A stretch of DNA of 64,000 nucleotides from an uncultured Cohaesibacter sp. GTDB taxonomy: Bacteria; Pseudomonadota; Alphaproteobacteria; Rhizobiales; Cohaesibacteraceae. Below are positions 2,826-26,061 of the stretch, in pieces. Both the position numbers and the translations under genes were made by a program. The DNA lies in assembly GCF_963666525.1 (NCBI RefSeq), contig NZ_OY762905.1:3699501-3763500 (forward strand), in the 5' to 3' direction. A model generated the notes under the pieces. That model was not told the DNA's origin and ran no database searches. It was given only the letters and a program-made list of their open reading frames with translations. Each line of letters starts with the position of its first letter. The stretch's first letter is position 1.

Positions 2826-3608
2826 ATGACGCTTTCTACTCGAGTTGCCGCGCATCTTCCCTATCTTCGTCGCTACGCTCGTGCTGTGACGGGGTCTCAA
2901 ACGTCTGGAGATGCCTTTGTGGCGGCCACCCTGGAAGCTCTGATCTCAGATGTTTCCCTGTTCCCCGAAACCGGCAGTGACCGTGTTTCCCTCTATAAAC
3001 TTTTCTCTGATCTCTACCGCAGGGCCAATGTGGATGTGCCTCCGGCCCAATCGCCCTATGGTTGGGAAAGCCGGGCGCAGGCAAACCTGCAAAACGTTCC
3101 TCCTGCTCCGAGACAGGCCTTTCTGCTGGCCTCGGTCGAGGAATTCGCAGAGCATGAGATCGCGCTCGTTCTTGGCGTCGAAACCGACGTGGTGGCAGAC
3201 CTCCTTGGCGAAGCCTCAGTCATGATTTCCAAACAGGTCGCGACCGATGTCATGATCATCGAGGATGAGCCGCTGATCGCCATGGACATCGAGCAGATGG
3301 TCGAAAGCCTTGGCCACCGGGTCACCGGCATCGCCCGGACCTACGACGAGGCGATCGAGCTTTACAACAGCGACAAGCCGGCGATGGTGCTCGCCGATAT
3401 CCAACTGGCTGACGGTTCCTCCGGAATCGATGCGGTCAATGATATTCTCAAGGACAGCGATATCCCGGTGATCTTCATCACCGCCTTTCCTGAGCGATTG
3501 CTGACTGGCGAACGCCCGGAACCGACCTTCCTTGTCACCAAGCCATTCAATGAAGACATGGTCAAGGCGCTGATCAGCCAGGCCCTGTTCTTCGACGGAA
3601 AAGCTTAG
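2826..3608 (+). CDS. phyR: PhyR response regulator (anti-anti-sigma factor)
   Basis: 260 aa. Residues 1-130 are a sigma-factor-like domain lacking DNA-binding function, used as a decoy for NepR; 140-255 are a receiver domain. Readable receiver residues are the acid pair E146/D147, phospho-acceptor D191 (LADIQ), T219 and K239. The FITAFPERLLTGERPEP stretch is the FATGUY signature of PhyR-type receivers. When phosphorylated it binds NepR and frees EcfG. It is divergent from nepR. Start at 2826 has AAGGAG at 2810-2815. A GGGAAC -35-like element at 2742-2747 faces it, but no CGTT follows at 16-17 bases. Confidence 0.95.
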   Translation: MTLSTRVAAHLPYLRRYARAVTGSQTSGDAFVAATLEALISDVSLFPETGSDRVSLYKLFSDLYRRANVDVPPAQSPYGWESRAQANLQNVPPAPRQAFLLASVEEFAEHEIALVLGVETDVVADLLGEASVMISKQVATDVMIIEDEPLIAMDIEQMVESLGHRVTGIARTYDEAIELYNSDKPAMVLADIQLADGSSGIDAVNDILKDSDIPVIFITAFPERLLTGERPEPTFLVTKPFNEDMVKALISQALFFDGKA

Positions 3609-18773: not shown

Positions 18774-18950
18774 GCCGGGGCGAATTGATGGCGGGCCAAT
18801 ATAAAGGGGAGGCGCACAGCAAAGCGAAAATGCCTTGCAAGTGTCGCCTGTCGTGCGGATTATCCTTGAAAAGGCCCTAATTCTGGGCAGAGGATGCCGC
18901 AAGGTAAAAAGAGACCGCGACAACGGCACCATCAGAGGAATGCCACGGCC

Positions 18951-20009
18951 ATGGAAAGCAAGCCAGAAGGTCCATCAAGCTTTGAATTGCTCAGGAGCGT
19001 GAGCATAGATCGCCACCTGCTGGATGAACTGACCGCCAGAGGCTCGATCGATCAGGACCTGCGCCTGGAAAGCCTTGGCTGGCTGCATCCCGGTCACCTG
19101 TGGGCGCGCTGGACGATGGTCATGCTGATGGCTTTCGGGGCAGGACTCGTGCTGGCCGGGATTGTCTTTTTCTTTGCCTTCAACTGGGCCTCCATACCCG
19201 ATCTGGTCAAGCTCGGTCTCATCGAGTCCGCAATCATCCTAACCGCGCTTGGTGCTTGGCTGTTGCCACAGGAGGCCTTGCCCGGTCGCCTGTTGCTGCT
19301 TGCCGCGGCGGTTCTGACCGGTGTCTTTCTGGCTGTTTTCGGCCAGATCTACCAGACCGGAGCCGACGCCTGGCAGTTCTTTGCGCTCTGGGTGGTGTTG
19401 ATCACTCTCTGGACAGCCATCGGGCGGCTTTTGCCGCTCTGGGTGTTGTGGCTGCTGCTTGCCAACCTGTCCTTTTTCCTCTGGTGGAGCGATCAGCCGG
19501 GGCTTGAGGATGATCACACCAGCCTGATGTATCTGGTCCATGCGCTGGCCAACGGGGTGGTGCTGCTTGTCCGTGAATGGCTGTTGCCCGACCCAGTCGA
19601 GACCGAGAACGAAGCCTTTGGCTGGCTCGCGCCACGCTGGACGCGTTGGCTGTTGCTGGCTGCCATGTTGAGCTTCCTGTTTCCGACGCTGATGATCTGG
19701 ATTGCCAACTGGGAAACGGCAAGTGCCTCGGTTGCCTTGTCGGCTCTGGTTGCTGCCGGGGTCACGCTGGTGCTGTTTCTGGCCTTTCGCTTCTGGCGAC
19801 CCGATGTGCCGGCACTGGCCATGGAACTGCTGATGGTCTGCATTCTGGTCATCATGGCGGTGGCCATCATCATGTTCGATGATATTTTCGCTTCTCTGGG
19901 AACGACATTTTTCACGGCGATTGCCGCCGTAGTCTGCTTCGGCGGGGCTGCGGGCTATCTGCGCAGCCTGCTGGCGCGCGGCATCGATGAACAGGAGGCC
20001 GGGTCATGA
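18951..20009 (+). CDS. DUF2157 membrane protein
   Basis: 352 aa. A soluble N-terminal helix region (about 10-55) is followed by about ten transmembrane segments. The N-terminal pattern and the downstream partners identify DUF2157. GAGGA lies 11 bases before the start. Its stop overlaps the next ATG (ATGA), so the three genes 18951-21798 form a tightly coupled operon. No function is established for the family; co-occurrence with DUF4401 and GDYXXLXY proteins suggests a membrane complex. Confidence 0.8.
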   Translation: MESKPEGPSSFELLRSVSIDRHLLDELTARGSIDQDLRLESLGWLHPGHLWARWTMVMLMAFGAGLVLAGIVFFFAFNWASIPDLVKLGLIESAIILTALGAWLLPQEALPGRLLLLAAAVLTGVFLAVFGQIYQTGADAWQFFALWVVLITLWTAIGRLLPLWVLWLLLANLSFFLWWSDQPGLEDDHTSLMYLVHALANGVVLLVREWLLPDPVETENEAFGWLAPRWTRWLLLAAMLSFLFPTLMIWIANWETASASVALSALVAAGVTLVLFLAFRFWRPDVPALAMELLMVCILVIMAVAIIMFDDIFASLGTTFFTAIAAVVCFGGAAGYLRSLLARGIDEQEAGS

Positions 20010-21271
20010 CCGAGACGCCAAACCCGAGAGTCTTCCGCTTCCTGATGGAAGCACCCGGTGTGCTGGACTGGCTGAAGCATCTGCGTGACAGCCAACGGAT
20101 TGATGTCCACCAGCTGGATGTGATTGCGCGGGACATCCTTGTCATCAAGACACGCAGAACAGAAGAGGCGCCAATCTACCTCAGGGCCCTCAGCGCGATC
20201 GGGGCCATCATCTCCGGCTTCCTGTTTCTCTATCTGCTCTATCTGTTCGGCCTGTTTGATCTCAGCATGGTCAACCTCAGCGTCAACGGTCTGGTTTTCA
20301 TCGGGCTGGCGTCGCTGCTCTATCGGCTCGGCATGAAGAAGACCAGCCTCAGTGGTGATTTCTACATCCAGCTTGCCCTGACCTTTCTGCAGGTTGGCAA
20401 ATTCGCTCTGGTCGCAGGGTTGGGCCAGATCGTGCATGACGCATTCGATCTCAACTGGTTCTGGACGATCTCGGCCATTCTCGGGTTGGTGATGGTGCTC
20501 AGCTTTGTTGCATTTCCCTCCACCATCGAGCGCTTCGTTGCTGCCTTTGTCTTTCTGGCCTCGTTGTGGATCAGCCTGCTGGCCGATACCCCGCGCAATC
20601 TTGAGCTGGTCGGTTTCGATCTGTTGCTGGGGGCTCATATTCTGGCGCTTGCCGCCCTGCTGCGCTGGCCTGCGTTGCGTCAGTCTCTGACGTCCTTCTA
20701 TGACGCACTGCTATTGTCGCTCTGTCTGGCCATCGGCCTCATCGAGAGTTTTGTCAACGGCGGGGAGAGCTATTGGGGTGACCTGTCGGAAAAGATGCAG
20801 ATGTTTCTGGGGTTTGGCTATAAATGGTCAATCCAGGTGACGCTGGCGATCACGCTGGGGGCATTGATCCTTTGGGTCACCGGTCGCAAGGGCAGGCTTG
20901 GCCAGCAGGCAGGACTGATCTCGGAACCGATCCTGGCTGCCTTTGCCGGTGTTCTGGCGTTGGCGCTGCTGTCGAATGCCGGCATCCTGCTTGCGATGGG
21001 GCTGATGATCCTCGGTTTTGCCACCCACCGGCAGGTGCACACCCTGCTGGGATTGCTGTTCGCGCTGGTCTTCGGCTTTATCTACTATTACATGCTGGAT
21101 CTGACGCTGTTGCAGAAATCCCTGATCCTCATTGCATCCGGGGCCATTCTGCTGATCGGGTCCGGCTATATCTTCTGGCGCGGCTGGTCGAACAGCCCCG
21201 ATGAGGATACTGCGAGCAATGGAACGGGTGGCCCCGCGCCATCAGCGGTCACGCGGAGGCGCAGCCTATGA
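20006..21271 (+). CDS. DUF4401 membrane protein
   Basis: 421 aa. About 60 soluble residues, then 11-12 hydrophobic segments with short loops, consistent with DUF4401. It overlaps both neighbours by 4 bases (ATGA at 20006 and 21268), a mark of stoichiometric co-translation. In other genomes DUF2157 and DUF4401 are fused or adjacent, which fits a common complex. Role unknown. Confidence 0.78.
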   Translation: MTETPNPRVFRFLMEAPGVLDWLKHLRDSQRIDVHQLDVIARDILVIKTRRTEEAPIYLRALSAIGAIISGFLFLYLLYLFGLFDLSMVNLSVNGLVFIGLASLLYRLGMKKTSLSGDFYIQLALTFLQVGKFALVAGLGQIVHDAFDLNWFWTISAILGLVMVLSFVAFPSTIERFVAAFVFLASLWISLLADTPRNLELVGFDLLLGAHILALAALLRWPALRQSLTSFYDALLLSLCLAIGLIESFVNGGESYWGDLSEKMQMFLGFGYKWSIQVTLAITLGALILWVTGRKGRLGQQAGLISEPILAAFAGVLALALLSNAGILLAMGLMILGFATHRQVHTLLGLLFALVFGFIYYYMLDLTLLQKSLILIASGAILLIGSGYIFWRGWSNSPDEDTASNGTGGPAPSAVTRRRSL

Positions 21272-21798
21272 GACGACATCTTGTTCTGCTGGCGTTGCTG
21301 CCTGTTCTTGCCGTCCTCAATTATTCGCTGTACGAGCGGGAGACCTTGAGACGCGGGGGGGAACTGGTGCTGCTTGAATTGGCCCCAGCGGATCCGCGTT
21401 CCCTGATGCAGGGTGACTACATGCGCCTGCGCTATGAAGCAGAACAGAAGGCTGGAGCTGCATGGAAGCGCCTGACAGAAGAGGATCCGGACCTTGAAAC
21501 CCGGGGGCCCACCTCTCGCAAGATCGTGCTCAGCCTTGATGACAAGGCAAGAGCACGCTTCGATCGCTTCCACAGGGAGGGCGAGGTGCTTGCCCCACAG
21601 GAGCGCCTGCTCAGCTTCCGCTTCCTGCCCGACAAGGGCAGCAGCAGCATCCGGATCGAGCCCCAGTCCTTCTTCTTTCAGGAAGGCCATGGCGACCAGT
21701 TCAGCGCGGCCCGCTTTGGCATGATGCATCTGGGGAGCGATGGAGACCATTTGCTCGTCGGGTTGGCCAATGAGGCCTTGGCGGAAATCAGACCGTAG
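21268..21798 (+). CDS. GDYXXLXY domain protein
   Basis: 176 aa. An N-terminal hydrophobic segment (about 3-20) acts as a signal anchor; the family motif GDYMRLRY is at about 49-56. The rest (about 57-176) is a predicted beta-rich extracytoplasmic domain. It is the third gene of the DUF2157-DUF4401-GDYXXLXY operon and would present the only large extracytoplasmic domain of the set. Biochemical role unknown. Confidence 0.85.
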   Translation: MRRHLVLLALLPVLAVLNYSLYERETLRRGGELVLLELAPADPRSLMQGDYMRLRYEAEQKAGAAWKRLTEEDPDLETRGPTSRKIVLSLDDKARARFDRFHREGEVLAPQERLLSFRFLPDKGSSSIRIEPQSFFFQEGHGDQFSAARFGMMHLGSDGDHLLVGLANEALAEIRP

Positions 21799-21997
21799 GC
21801 TGGGACGGTTACGAAGGCATTCAGCCTCCAGGCATGGCGTTATGGCAAGCGCGTCGTCCGGTCAGGCCGAGCACTGGCAATGCCACAATTAACGCAAAGC
21901 TAACCATAATAAGTTAAGCTTTCGGGTGATATCCGCGCCCGGGTCTGGATTTTGACACTCGGGGACATTGCCATACTTGCTGGATTTAGAGACCCGA

Positions 21998-24184
21998 ATG
22001 CTCGAATTTGCCCGAATGCTCATGTCTATTCTCGGTTTGGGGCTGCCATTCGGTCTGATCATGGTGATGTCCGGCCGAGTCAAATATCGCAATGAACTGG
22101 ACACGTTTCTCAGGATTATTGCCGCATTCTGCATCTCAATCATCGTCTATTGGGCCATCGGATATGGGCTCTACAGCGGCGAGACCATTCAGGGTTTCAT
22201 CGGATCCACCACCGGCTTTTCCCATCGCAATGACCTGCTGCAGGGAGAATCCGACCTGCGACTGCTGGTGCTGTTCACCGTTCCCGCCATTAGCACAGCT
22301 GCCGCCATGGCCGAGCGCGGGAAATATCACTCCGGTAATCTGCTTTCCATGTTTGTGGCTGTGGCCATAGCCCCGGTGGCAGCACACTGGGCCTGGCACA
22401 GTGACGCCAGTGGCGACGGATGGCTGTTTGCTCGCAAATTTCTGGACAGCGGCGGCACCATTGTGATTTTTATTTCGTCCGGCTTCGCTGCTCTGGCGGT
22501 ATCGTTGAGCCTTGGTGCGCGCCTCGGGCGCTTCCCGATGCAGATGGGACGACCCCGTGGCCAGGGGCCAACCTGGTATGGCATGGGGGTCATTTCCGTT
22601 GTCATTTCCATCGTCACGCTCACGGCAATGAATTCCTCGAGCTTGGGCGAAATGACAGCCGCCTTCTATGTGCTGCTCATCGGTTCCAGCTTTGCCACCT
22701 TGGCTGGCTCTTTCATGCTGGTGATCATGCGCCGGGGCGAAATGACACAGAATATCTCGACTTCAGTGCTGGCCGGTACGGTCGCGCTGACCTCGGTCGC
22801 AGCAAATGCAGAGCCGGCTGACGCGGCCCTTACGGGCATGCTCGCTGGAGCCGTTTCCATCGCCTTCAACCGTATTCTGGTGACCATCGAGGTGGATGAT
22901 CCGGGCGAGTTGATTTCGGCTTTCCTGTCGGGCGGATTTGTCGGTGGGCTGATGGCCCCGCTCGCGCTCAAGGAATATGGCGACAGCCTCGCCAATGAAT
23001 TTGTCACCCAGTTGATCGGCATCGGAGCCATCGGTGCCTGGTCGTTCCTCGTCACGTTTATTGCAGCGCAGTTTTTGAGGTTCGCAGGTGGTTTGCGGGT
23101 CAGCGAAATCGATGAAAAGCGAGGTCTTTCCGTTACCCATTTCGGCTTCCTCAGTGAACCCGACTTCATGATTTCCAATGTCATGCGGCTCAATGACCGC
23201 CAGATGCTCGGCTCCGGGGAACGCAACTCTGTACTGGTCAAGATCTCCACGGACTTCACGCAGGCGATAGTCAGCCTGCATGATGCCACCATCCGGGCAA
23301 CTGATCGCATCCTGTCTACCAGCACCGACCCCAGAAAAGGGGCTGCCATGGTGGCTCGAATCCGGCTGGCCGAAGACAGTGTCCGGGTGAAAGCGGAAGA
23401 TATCATGATGCTGCTCGAGGAGATCCTGCGCAAGGGAGACGAGGGGGACCTCAACAGCGAGCGGTTTCTGCAGTGGGGCCAGGCAGCGCTCGACCGCCTG
23501 CTGGTCCCGGTGAAGACCGACATCGACAAGCTGGCGCGCCACATTCCGCTACAGGCCGAGTTGGCAGAGCTTGAGGGGATTGTCATCACTGCGGCCGAAG
23601 TTCTGTCCGCTGGTGCCCACCAGATCGAGCTGCTGCGCGATCTGGAGGAGGCTCAGATCGATGGCTTCTTCGCCAATGACCACATTTGCGACATCGCAGC
23701 TCTGCTGCATGAGCGCTCAGACCGCATCAAGGCGCTTGCCGAAGTGCGCAACCGCCCAATCCAGATCGATTGCCCGGTCACCGAAGGGTTGACCGTCATT
23801 GGTGATGCAAACGCCTTTGCCCGTATCCTGACACTGACAGTGGAAGGGGCCCTGAACCGGCAACTGTCTTCAGGCATCAAGCCGGTGCGACTGGAACTCA
23901 AGGAGCACAGTTCCGGGCAATATGTGGTGCTCGATTGTCTTGACACCGGCACCTCGTTGTCAAACCGGCAGATCAGGGCCATCCGCGAGCCACTCTCCGA
24001 AGACCGTGCCCTTGACGAACTGGGGCTCAATCAGATCCTGCCGCTGATCCTGGCCGCTCGCCTCGTTCGATCTATGGGAGGAGAATTTGCCATTTCAAGC
24101 GAGCATCAGGCTGGCACTCACCTGCGCTGCCGCTTCAGGAAACGGCAGAAGAAGGGGCAGAATCCGGGCCGCAAGGCAGCTTGA
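21998..24184 (+). CDS. ammonium-transporter-like sensor fused to a degenerate histidine kinase
   Basis: 728 aa. Residues 1-380 align by eye with Amt/Rh channels in order: LPFGLIMVMSGRVKYRN (Amt TM1), YWAIGYGL, AERGKY then APVAAHW, LDSGGTIV, VDDPGE and GLRVSEIDEKRGL. Both pore histidines are lost: Amt GGTVVH is GGTIVI here and the one in FGVHG is replaced by Phe309, so ammonium conduction is unlikely. From about 410 a helical region leads to an ATPase-like domain (about 600-715) with weak N-box (VEGALNRQL) and G1 box (DTGTS) but a recognisable LVRSMGGEFAISSEHQAGTHL end. It is probably a sensor with altered kinase output. A TTG start at 21968 is possible. Confidence 0.75.
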   Translation: MLEFARMLMSILGLGLPFGLIMVMSGRVKYRNELDTFLRIIAAFCISIIVYWAIGYGLYSGETIQGFIGSTTGFSHRNDLLQGESDLRLLVLFTVPAISTAAAMAERGKYHSGNLLSMFVAVAIAPVAAHWAWHSDASGDGWLFARKFLDSGGTIVIFISSGFAALAVSLSLGARLGRFPMQMGRPRGQGPTWYGMGVISVVISIVTLTAMNSSSLGEMTAAFYVLLIGSSFATLAGSFMLVIMRRGEMTQNISTSVLAGTVALTSVAANAEPADAALTGMLAGAVSIAFNRILVTIEVDDPGELISAFLSGGFVGGLMAPLALKEYGDSLANEFVTQLIGIGAIGAWSFLVTFIAAQFLRFAGGLRVSEIDEKRGLSVTHFGFLSEPDFMISNVMRLNDRQMLGSGERNSVLVKISTDFTQAIVSLHDATIRATDRILSTSTDPRKGAAMVARIRLAEDSVRVKAEDIMMLLEEILRKGDEGDLNSERFLQWGQAALDRLLVPVKTDIDKLARHIPLQAELAELEGIVITAAEVLSAGAHQIELLRDLEEAQIDGFFANDHICDIAALLHERSDRIKALAEVRNRPIQIDCPVTEGLTVIGDANAFARILTLTVEGALNRQLSSGIKPVRLELKEHSSGQYVVLDCLDTGTSLSNRQIRAIREPLSEDRALDELGLNQILPLILAARLVRSMGGEFAISSEHQAGTHLRCRFRKRQKKGQNPGRKAA

Positions 24185-24243: not shown

Positions 24244-26061
24244 TCAATGCAGGGTTTCCCGGGCAATGGGGGTCCAGGCGGCATTGATGTGATGCTGAAC
24301 AAGGCTCAGCTGTTCGCTGACTGGTTTTGAGGCATCAAGCTCTATCCAGTGCACCGCGTCACGATGACCAAGGGACACCTCCTGAAGGCTCTGGAGGTCC
24401 GTCTGCGAAACGATAGCCGCCGGGGTGATGACCGAATGCCCCTGAGGTTTCATGGGATGGGGCAGGAAGGCCGAAAGCGCTTCCCTGCGACGCAGGTCTT
24501 CCTTGCTGCAGGAAAAGAGGCTGAGCGCGATCAGGGAATTCTCCATGCCCGTTTCCTCGGCCAGATCCGACAGCTGCTGCCGGAGCATCGGGGTGTCGAA
24601 CGCGCCTTCCAGAATGACCGAATAACCGGCGGCCAGAGCATGTCGTGCCTTGTCGGCCATGCGGCGATAGACCAGTTCCCAGACCGAATTGCGGCTCGAT
24701 GACTGAGGCAGATCCTCCACGCGTTCCACCTCGTAGAGAGCAAGGCATTCCTGCTCTGCCGAGAGATAGAGCGCACCGGGCATCCGTCCGGTGGTCGGGG
24801 CCAGCAGACGGGCCAGATTGGAGCGGTCGGTCTGGCTGCCACCGCTGATCGCGATCAGTCGGGTTTCGTCCTGCAACAGGCTGTCGCGGGCGGTCTTGAT
24901 ATGGCCTTGCAGGACGGTTTCTTCCGTGCCGCCCTGGAACAGCCCCGATGGCATCGTCTGGCCGGTGGCCGCGCGCGCATTCAGGGTTGCCTTGATATTC
25001 TTGGCATCGGCGAGGGCCTGCAGGAAGATATAGAGGTCCAGTACCTGCAAGCCTTCCAGAGCATGGCTATCGAACAGGCGGTTGCAGTAATGCGAGAAGA
25101 CCCAGTTGGCCTGCCGGGTGAACCCGCGCGACCACAGCTCGCCAATCAGGGTGGCCAGATCGTAGAACGGATCGCCTATATGGTCGCGCATCACGCTTTT
25201 CGAGCCGTTGACCTTCGGGTTGACCATCCGGAGCCCGTCCGAAAGCTTGACCACGTTGCGTAGACGCAGGTTGCCATGGATCTGGCCGAACAGACCCCGG
25301 TCGGCCCGGCGCTGTATGGCTGCTCTGGTGCGGTCGAGCTGGTCCTGTGCCCGGTTGAAACAGGCCCGCAGGGTGTTTTTCTTGGACTTGATGCCGAGCT
25401 TGCGGACCACTGGCTCCAGATCATCAAACATCTCGTCCATGAGGTCGAGCCAGGAATGGACGTGCCTGGCTGGCGTATCGATCGTGTGCCCCGGCGTGAC
25501 CAGACGGGCCAGATCTCGGCATTCGGCGAAATTGGGCTGATAGAGCTCTGCCAAATGATCGTAGCGCTTGGAGAAATCATAACGGCGCATCACGATCACC
25601 CAGTCGACGATGGCACTCTCGTCGCCATGGCTGATGGTGTCGGCAACCCGGCTCTGCTGTTCCGCTGTCGGAACCTGCATGGTCAGCATGGTGCCACGCT
25701 GGCGAACGGGAATGAGATCGAGATACAGCTCCGGCGCATAGTTGCGCCCCAGCAGTACTTCCTTGGCTGCCAGACTGTGGCGCTCATCAAGCGAGAAGGG
25801 CTCGTTGCGCCCAAGGGCGTTGCGACGCAGCAGCTTGTAGCAGAATTCCCCCGCCATGAAGAACAGGAACTGGGGCGTCTCCATGCGCTCGACAGAGGTT
25901 TCCAGCCCATAGCTTTCCGGAGCGCTCAGAAAGGCGATGACCTTCTCCTGCAACAGCGCATAGCGATCCATCGACACCGGATGGCGCTTGCTGAGAACAC
26001 TTTCGGACTCGTTGGAAGATAGTGTGGCTGGTCTGCTGCGTTGGGAATTTTCAATACCCAT
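24244..26061 (-). CDS. AAA/APH bifunctional-family protein with degenerate active sites
   Basis: 605 aa. Residues about 35-370 have the aminoglycoside-phosphotransferase-like fold of the COG2187 family and about 400-590 a P-loop kinase-like domain (COG0645). The expected catalytic HGDLH motif reads HGNLR (262-266), the metal-binding Asp region reads MVNPKVNG, and the Walker A loop expected as GxSGSGKST reads SGGSQTDRSN (406-415) with no lysine. Both halves therefore look catalytically impaired. AGGA precedes the start at suitable spacing. The gene converges on the Amt-kinase gene with only 59 bases between. Role unknown. Confidence 0.7.
   Translation of the reverse strand: MGIENSQRSRPATLSSNESESVLSKRHPVSMDRYALLQEKVIAFLSAPESYGLETSVERMETPQFLFFMAGEFCYKLLRRNALGRNEPFSLDERHSLAAKEVLLGRNYAPELYLDLIPVRQRGTMLTMQVPTAEQQSRVADTISHGDESAIVDWVIVMRRYDFSKRYDHLAELYQPNFAECRDLARLVTPGHTIDTPARHVHSWLDLMDEMFDDLEPVVRKLGIKSKKNTLRACFNRAQDQLDRTRAAIQRRADRGLFGQIHGNLRLRNVVKLSDGLRMVNPKVNGSKSVMRDHIGDPFYDLATLIGELWSRGFTRQANWVFSHYCNRLFDSHALEGLQVLDLYIFLQALADAKNIKATLNARAATGQTMPSGLFQGGTEETVLQGHIKTARDSLLQDETRLIAISGGSQTDRSNLARLLAPTTGRMPGALYLSAEQECLALYEVERVEDLPQSSSRNSVWELVYRRMADKARHALAAGYSVILEGAFDTPMLRQQLSDLAEETGMENSLIALSLFSCSKEDLRRREALSAFLPHPMKPQGHSVITPAAIVSQTDLQSLQEVSLGHRDAVHWIELDASKPVSEQLSLVQHHINAAWTPIARETLH

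Follow-up and report, generated by a model that had tools for sequence, protein, structure and literature searches.

A Cohaesibacter Amt-kinase fusion with both pore histidines replaced and degenerate kinase motifs

Among described systems, Ks-Amt5 of Kuenenia stuttgartiensis (PDB 6eu6) shares with the protein considered here an N-terminal ammonium transporter (Amt) domain and a C-terminal DHp-CA region (phmmer 79.4 bits; target TM 0.86). Ks-Amt5 has an active kinase and binds NH4+ at a high-affinity site, and it retains the twin-His of the pore, the Phe gate and the residues of S1 (PMC5764959); the Cohaesibacter protein has lost the kinase motifs, the twin-His and those high-affinity residues that could be mapped. 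Sd-Amt1, a receptor from Shewanella denitrificans (PDB 8qj3, 8qj4 and 8qpf), matches the Amt domain best, in sequence (125.1 bits) as in fold (target TM of at most 0.88); in contrast to the Cohaesibacter protein, it retains both histidines in the aligned part, the comparison covering the Amt domain. For the C-terminal half, a likeness is found in DivL, a Caulobacter pseudokinase (PDB 4q20) with a histidine-kinase (HK) fold but no phospho-acceptor His, which differs in carrying a PAS sensor in place of the Amt domain. DivL is said to keep the remaining HK motifs and, although disabled as a kinase, to sense a regulator in its phosphorylated state (PMC4211667); it is also reported to regulate CckA (PMC9430884). 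There are precedents for receptors that descend from transporters and for pseudo-histidine kinases; in the Cohaesibacter protein the two are united, with both halves disarmed under strong selection. A literature search, for which most subscription papers lay out of reach and in which the Sd-Amt1 papers were absent, returned no Amt-pseudokinase and no Amt fusion devoid of the twin-His.

The Amt domain and its pore

The gene (Table 1) lies in the window, meaning the whole stretch of 64,000 nucleotides of Cohaesibacter DNA that was analysed. Its ATG at 21998, from which residues are numbered, is conserved across the genus; a longer alternative start, TTG at 21968, is not. The preliminary description, drawn from the letters alone, had proposed an open reading frame with an Amt-like N-terminal and a kinase-like C-terminal region, and this arrangement is borne out: the N-terminal part matches the Pfam family Ammonium_transp with 131.8 bits (cut-off 23.2). 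An AlphaFold model (mean pLDDT 79.2, pTM 0.57, with a 19-sequence alignment as input) recovers the Amt fold when compared with Escherichia coli AmtB and Ks-Amt5, so that a model devoid of this fold, the outcome named beforehand as refuting, did not appear. The top Foldseek matches are Sd-Amt1 (in both ON and OFF states), Ks-Amt5, Af-Amt1 and AmtB, with target TM of 0.84-0.88 (0.86-0.88 for Sd-Amt1 and Ks-Amt5; 0.84-0.87 for AmtB).

Table 1. Coordinates of the fusion gene and its parts in the window
Feature	Residues	Window position	Strand	Basis
Whole CDS, Amt domain and degenerate histidine-kinase region	728 aa plus stop	21998..24184	+	
Amt-fold membrane domain	17-382	22046..23143	+	Pfam Ammonium_transp, Foldseek
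Phe replacing first pore His (AmtB H168, Ks-Amt5 H171)	Phe158	22469..22471	+	three alignments
Phe replacing second pore His (AmtB H318, Ks-Amt5 H326)	Phe309	22922..22924	+	three alignments
Helical region between Amt and DHp-like parts (helices 408-441 and 445-481)	408-481	23219..23440	+	secondary structure of AlphaFold model
DHp-like two-helix region, no recognisable phospho-acceptor His	487-552	23456..23653	+	alignment, model, HisKA
CA/HATPase-like domain, alpha/beta in model	560-716	23675..24145	+	Pfam HATPase_c, RetS and HK853 fold matches
Former N-box, RILTLTVEGALNRQ, Asn to Gly	609-622	23822..23863	+	alignment of genus members
Former D-box, DTG kept, next Gly lost	645-665	23930..23992	+	alignment of genus members
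Former G2 box, GLGL to Q(I/V)LPL	674-690	24017..24067	+	alignment of genus members

The protein thus has the fold and family profile of an Amt but lacks the twin-His in the pore that marks membership of the family. The two pore positions were mapped by three routes that agree, namely phmmer against Ks-Amt5 (in which all 13 mapped residues agree in letter and number with those published), MAFFT, and hmmalign with a profile from which the clade was left out; none of these alignments, the alternatives that might have kept the pore histidines, does so. Replacement of both histidines had been claimed, and it holds at both positions, with Phe309 as stated; the first histidine is replaced by the Phe of the IVIF motif and not by the Ile that precedes it. 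Across the clade, which comprises 17 Cohaesibacter sequences and one from the same family (G019), the first position is Phe in 18/18 members and the second is Phe in 14, Ala in two, and Ser and Thr in one each. Each of the 45 remaining distinct Amts in the MAFFT alignment keeps the twin-His (two of these rows are partial sequences taken from phmmer alignments), and so, by motif search, do 29/29 of the best-scoring loci from other orders of the class. A shifted pore histidine was considered and rejected: H130, the sole invariant His of the Amt domain among the 17 genus members, belongs to an HW motif common to Amts, and hmmalign to the clade-free profile puts Phe in the first column in all 18 clade members.

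Residues of the ligand site have also changed. The high-affinity site of Ks-Amt5 is formed by Q24, E31, N47, D50, T51, T109 and T112, of which T109 and T112 fall in a gap and Q24 lies outside the mapping; the four mapped residues E31, N47, D50 and T51 correspond in the phmmer alignment to M24, I40, A43 and F44, and all four are lost. Whether the Phe gate is lost is doubtful: its first position is Ala by phmmer or Leu by MAFFT, but F93 adjoins that Leu, and the second is Met by phmmer or Leu by MAFFT (the latter read by eye).

The kinase-like half

In the model, the helical connector is followed by two DHp-like helices (487-515 and 522-552). No HisKA match was obtained in the window protein or in any of the three genus members scanned, whereas two intact Amt-kinases taken for comparison score 83.8 and 70.0 bits for HisKA and 89.9 and 99.5 bits for HATPase_c. 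When the alignment is anchored by eye on the Pro of the H-box, a register that is not secure, no His occurs at the phospho-acceptor position or adjoining it in the 17 genus members; MAFFT and hhalign instead pair the intact H-box with residues that lie upstream of this register, and there one of 27 degenerate rows (L067) does have a His. An acidic mimic at the H-box is not claimed, given that the Pro anchor yields mostly Asp or Glu and an A-R-R/H anchor yields Arg, Lys or aliphatic residues. Conservation of the DHp-like region is moderate, with 12/66 positions invariant, and it therefore presents no evident docking face for a response regulator.

The description of the C-terminal half as weakly HATPase-like is confirmed by profile search, HATPase_c scoring 21.4 bits in the whole protein and 23.1 bits in the fragment, both below the cut-off of 26.4; the G019 copy, at 32.1 bits, lies above it. 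The N-box Asn position is Gly or Ala in 17/17 genus members, and G2 has become Q(I/V)LPL in the same 17. In the D-box, D649 and G651 are invariant in the genus and DTG is followed by L(S/T).RQ(I/V)R. The ATP motifs are broken apart from this Asp and Gly, and, given their invariance, some nucleotide binding may still occur. The former ATP pocket, defined as residues 609-622, 645-665, 674-690 and 706-707, is the best-conserved stretch of the CA-like domain and carries new fixed letters: 23/54 of its positions are invariant compared with 20/103 in the rest of the domain (mean entropy 0.58 versus 1.09; Fisher p 0.003, a descriptive value, as the pocket boundaries were set from the motifs after the invariant residues were known). 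Conservation of the pocket could also reflect core packing.

Among known kinases, the RetS kinase region (PDB 6dk7 and 6dk8) is the best HK fold match by Foldseek, which also matched HK853, and the NCBIfam model for RcsD scores 43.7 bits against a curated cut-off of 634; orthology is claimed for neither RetS nor RcsD. The architectures of RetS and RcsD differ from that of an Amt-kinase fusion. A family profile of 32 sequences finds DivL as its best PDB match (104.9 bits; next 77.5), though this match stems from the relatives (73.4 versus 63.1); a profile built from the genus alone does not match DivL and weakly matches 7z8n (24.0 bits) and RetS. In their own comparison, intact Amt-kinases rank DivL 13th. 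The Tyr H-box typical of DivL orthologues is absent from the window protein. In the same genome, a separate protein (L141, at C1:3194465) carries SYELRSP in the H-box place and is likely the DivL of this genome, and two other kinases outscore it. DivL was rejected as the direct source of the domain, since the genus-only profile misses it and the relatives have a linker that matches the one in intact Amt-kinases; DivL serves to illustrate how such a protein could work, and no common descent is asserted.

Relatives and the order of losses

A search of 297 genomes from the order gave whole-length relatives in 12 genomes that belong to a single other genus, and in two further genomes (G112 and G223). 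All 14 retain both pore histidines, and HATPase_c lies above its cut-off in the four of them that were scanned. In the 12 genomes of the related genus, SHELRTP corresponds to GRTFR.P, with Arg in place of the phospho-acceptor His (read by eye on the Pro anchor), a register weakly backed by a HisKA score of 11.3 bits, below cut-off, in one locus (L066); G112 has no His at this place and G223 (L079) has one that is one place off. In other orders of the class, the 29 best-scoring loci include 25 Amt-kinases that carry HELRTP and both pore histidines; the remaining four are two plain Amts and two fusions, one with GGDEF and one probably with MCP. Amt-kinase fusions had been said beforehand to be known from anammox bacteria, a statement that is too narrow in view of these intact alphaproteobacterial ones. 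The intact alphaproteobacterial Amt-kinases have the same architecture as the window protein and a related linker (hhalign against 11 relatives of one genus, E 9e-37), and differ from it in retaining the HELRTP box and both pore histidines. A profile of the C-terminal part alone, run against 385 genomes of the class with at most five candidates scored per genome, matched only the protein's own copy (E 1e-45).

In a whole-length tree, 27 degenerate sequences fall on one branch (SH-aLRT 97, the only form of support computed, with long branches that meet and drew warnings), and a single origin of the degenerate group is likely. In the Amt tree, the window protein groups with sensor-type fusions, and 12 of 13 plain Amts lie elsewhere. 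Disarming of the kinase probably preceded that of the pore, because most relatives with both pore histidines also have no recognisable phospho-acceptor; the simplest order would be loss of the phospho-acceptor followed by loss of the pore histidines. Taken as a series, the sequences suggest a passage from intact Amt-kinases in other orders, through forms of the same order with the kinase motif lost and the pore histidines kept, to the loss of both in Cohaesibacter. With such naturally occurring stages one can ask how a transceptor still signals once transport, ligand chemistry and phosphotransfer are gone. Another Amt fusion (G114, L106 849-3032), with the twin-His intact and HATPase_c below cut-off, perhaps represents a separate loss of kinase function.

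Candidate function and genomic context

A full-length orthologue occurs in 17/18 genus genomes, the genome without a match (G004) being 64% complete, and Cohaesibacter haloalkalitolerans JC131 carries a relative that is 97% identical. Over 10 pairs, with the Amt, helix/DHp and CA parts taken separately, dN/dS ranges from 0.02 to 0.13 (Amt 0.05-0.13; helix/DHp 0.05-0.11, one pair being without a value; CA 0.02-0.11), with distant pairs near saturation at synonymous sites. The gene is under strong purifying selection and is not decaying, as follows from its full length in 17 of the 18 genomes together with the low dN/dS. Decay into a functionless gene would fit the many motif residues lost and the fast-evolving Amt domain, yet in the face of these values it is scarcely credible. 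Compared with its counterpart in the Amt-MCP protein encoded in the same genomes, the Amt half of the fusion does evolve faster, with identities of 40.7-97.9% compared with 86.1-99.5% over 28 genome pairs.

With the pore histidines gone, no phospho-acceptor recognisable and the ATP site broken, the membrane fold, the helical connector and a conserved surface remain, which makes docking the likeliest output. The favoured reading, held with a little less than even confidence on the basis of sequence, model and analogy, is that an Amt-type ammonium sensor kinase gave rise to a membrane receptor which would neither conduct nor phosphorylate and would work by docking to another signalling protein. 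The protein would trimerise as other Amts do, its Amt domain would conduct no ammonium and its kinase-like region would not autophosphorylate. A ligand that is perhaps not ammonium would alter the conformation of the Amt domain, and this change would travel via the helical connector to the DHp/CA-like region, which, its re-used ATP pocket included, would dock on another two-component protein in a DivL-like manner. Of the earlier proposal that the protein is a sensor that neither transports nor phosphorylates, the loss of both activities is supported by sequence across the clade; the sensor role is presumed, all four mapped residues of the Ks-Amt5 site having gone. A more specific version is put forward tentatively, with appreciably less confidence: channel, ligand site, phospho-acceptor and ATP site would all have been replaced, the old pocket would have become a new binding site under strong selection, and the protein would act as a non-catalytic adaptor.

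Several alternatives compete with the docking receptor. The most serious, though still unlikely, is that the protein remains an ammonium sensor, with NH4+ bound at an outer S1-like site, the change relayed to the C-terminal region and conduction alone lost. The S1 Asp (D150; AmtB D160) is conserved in 17/18 clade members and the S1 Trp (W133) in 12/18, and the closest Amt kin in the tree are sensor-type fusions. The phmmer alignment also retains the S1 Ser as S215, and a Phe (F93) adjoins the Leu at the first gate position; these two points add weight to a persisting ammonium sensor and take some from the docking receptor. Weighing against it, 6/18 members carry Lys, Met, Gln or Arg at the S1 Trp position, the S1 Ser column of the MAFFT block, read by eye, is not Ser, and the mapped Ks-Amt5 high-affinity residues are lost. 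Less probable again is a dead subunit that tunes a working Amt, either AmtB or another fusion, within mixed trimers. Amts are trimers, and the genome encodes three other Amt proteins (Amt-PAS-GGDEF-EAL, Amt-HAMP-MCP and AmtB). Human RhD and RhCE, non-transporting partners of RhAG, offer a parallel. The kinship and trimer structure of these proteins are treated in PMC10985258. Judged by frame length, 17 of the 18 genus genomes have the dead fusion, 14 have the GGDEF-EAL fusion and eight have the MCP one, and three genomes (G008, G010 and G017) have the dead fusion without either other fusion, though they do possess plain Amts; together with the faster divergence of the Amt half, this distribution argues against mixed trimers.

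Two further possibilities would restore an activity to one half or the other. Continued kinase function, by way of another phospho-acceptor or unusual ATP binding, could appeal to D649 and G651 and to three histidines, H515 and H541 being His in 17/17 genus members and H562 in 16/17. It is nonetheless quite improbable, for H515 ends the first DHp-like helix and H541 lies in the second, neither at an H-box, both positions are Arg in 14/14 relatives (Arg and Gly in G019), and the genus no longer has the N-box Asn or the G2 Gly. Variants of AmtB with the twin-His changed to Ala can become channel-like for NH4+ (review, PMC10433425), so absence of transport is not to be assumed; loss of the twin-His in the window protein might open a leaky, channel-like NH4+ path, and the second position is indeed Ser, Thr or Ala in 4/18 clade members. 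With a bulky Phe at the first position throughout the clade and at both positions in 14/18 members, such a channel is very improbable.

The genomic neighbourhood names no partner. A response regulator was sought among the neighbours, as the preliminary description advised; no regulator was recognised among those neighbours of the order relatives' genes that were inspected by eye, a subset of them, and the nearest receiver domain of the genome (window 3249-3566) lies about 18 kb from the gene, out of 65 receiver-domain matches above cut-off. The genome has two PII genes, one adjoining AmtB and neither near the fusion gene; an adjacent response regulator or PII was rejected on these grounds. Sigma-54 sites show no marked excess in the window (48 matches with at most two mismatches against 41.8 expected), and a promoter scan gave one site, on the opposite strand, against 0.9 expected. 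In the window and in 12 genus relatives, the gene comes after an MFS gene and runs towards a convergent AAA_33 gene, with DUF2157, DUF4401 and GDYXXLXY genes intervening; by ORF calls, G012 is without GDYXXLXY and G010 without all three, its Amt gene remaining. In the window, this upstream cluster occupies 18894-21798 (+), with consecutive ORFs overlapping by four bases, and the convergent gene at 24244-26061 (-) combines an AAA_33 P-loop match (28.3 bits; cut-off 27) with an uncharacterised N-terminal part.

The other Amt fusions of the genome keep their pore histidines. The Amt-HAMP-MCP protein (827 aa; L002 1306-3786, at C1:1270737) retains both pore histidines and is likely an ammonium chemoreceptor. 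The Amt-PAS-GGDEF-EAL protein (1084 aa; L105 1531-4782, at C1:4235638) also keeps the twin-His and perhaps links ammonium to cyclic-di-GMP; its gene adjoins a divergent gene with a receiver domain.
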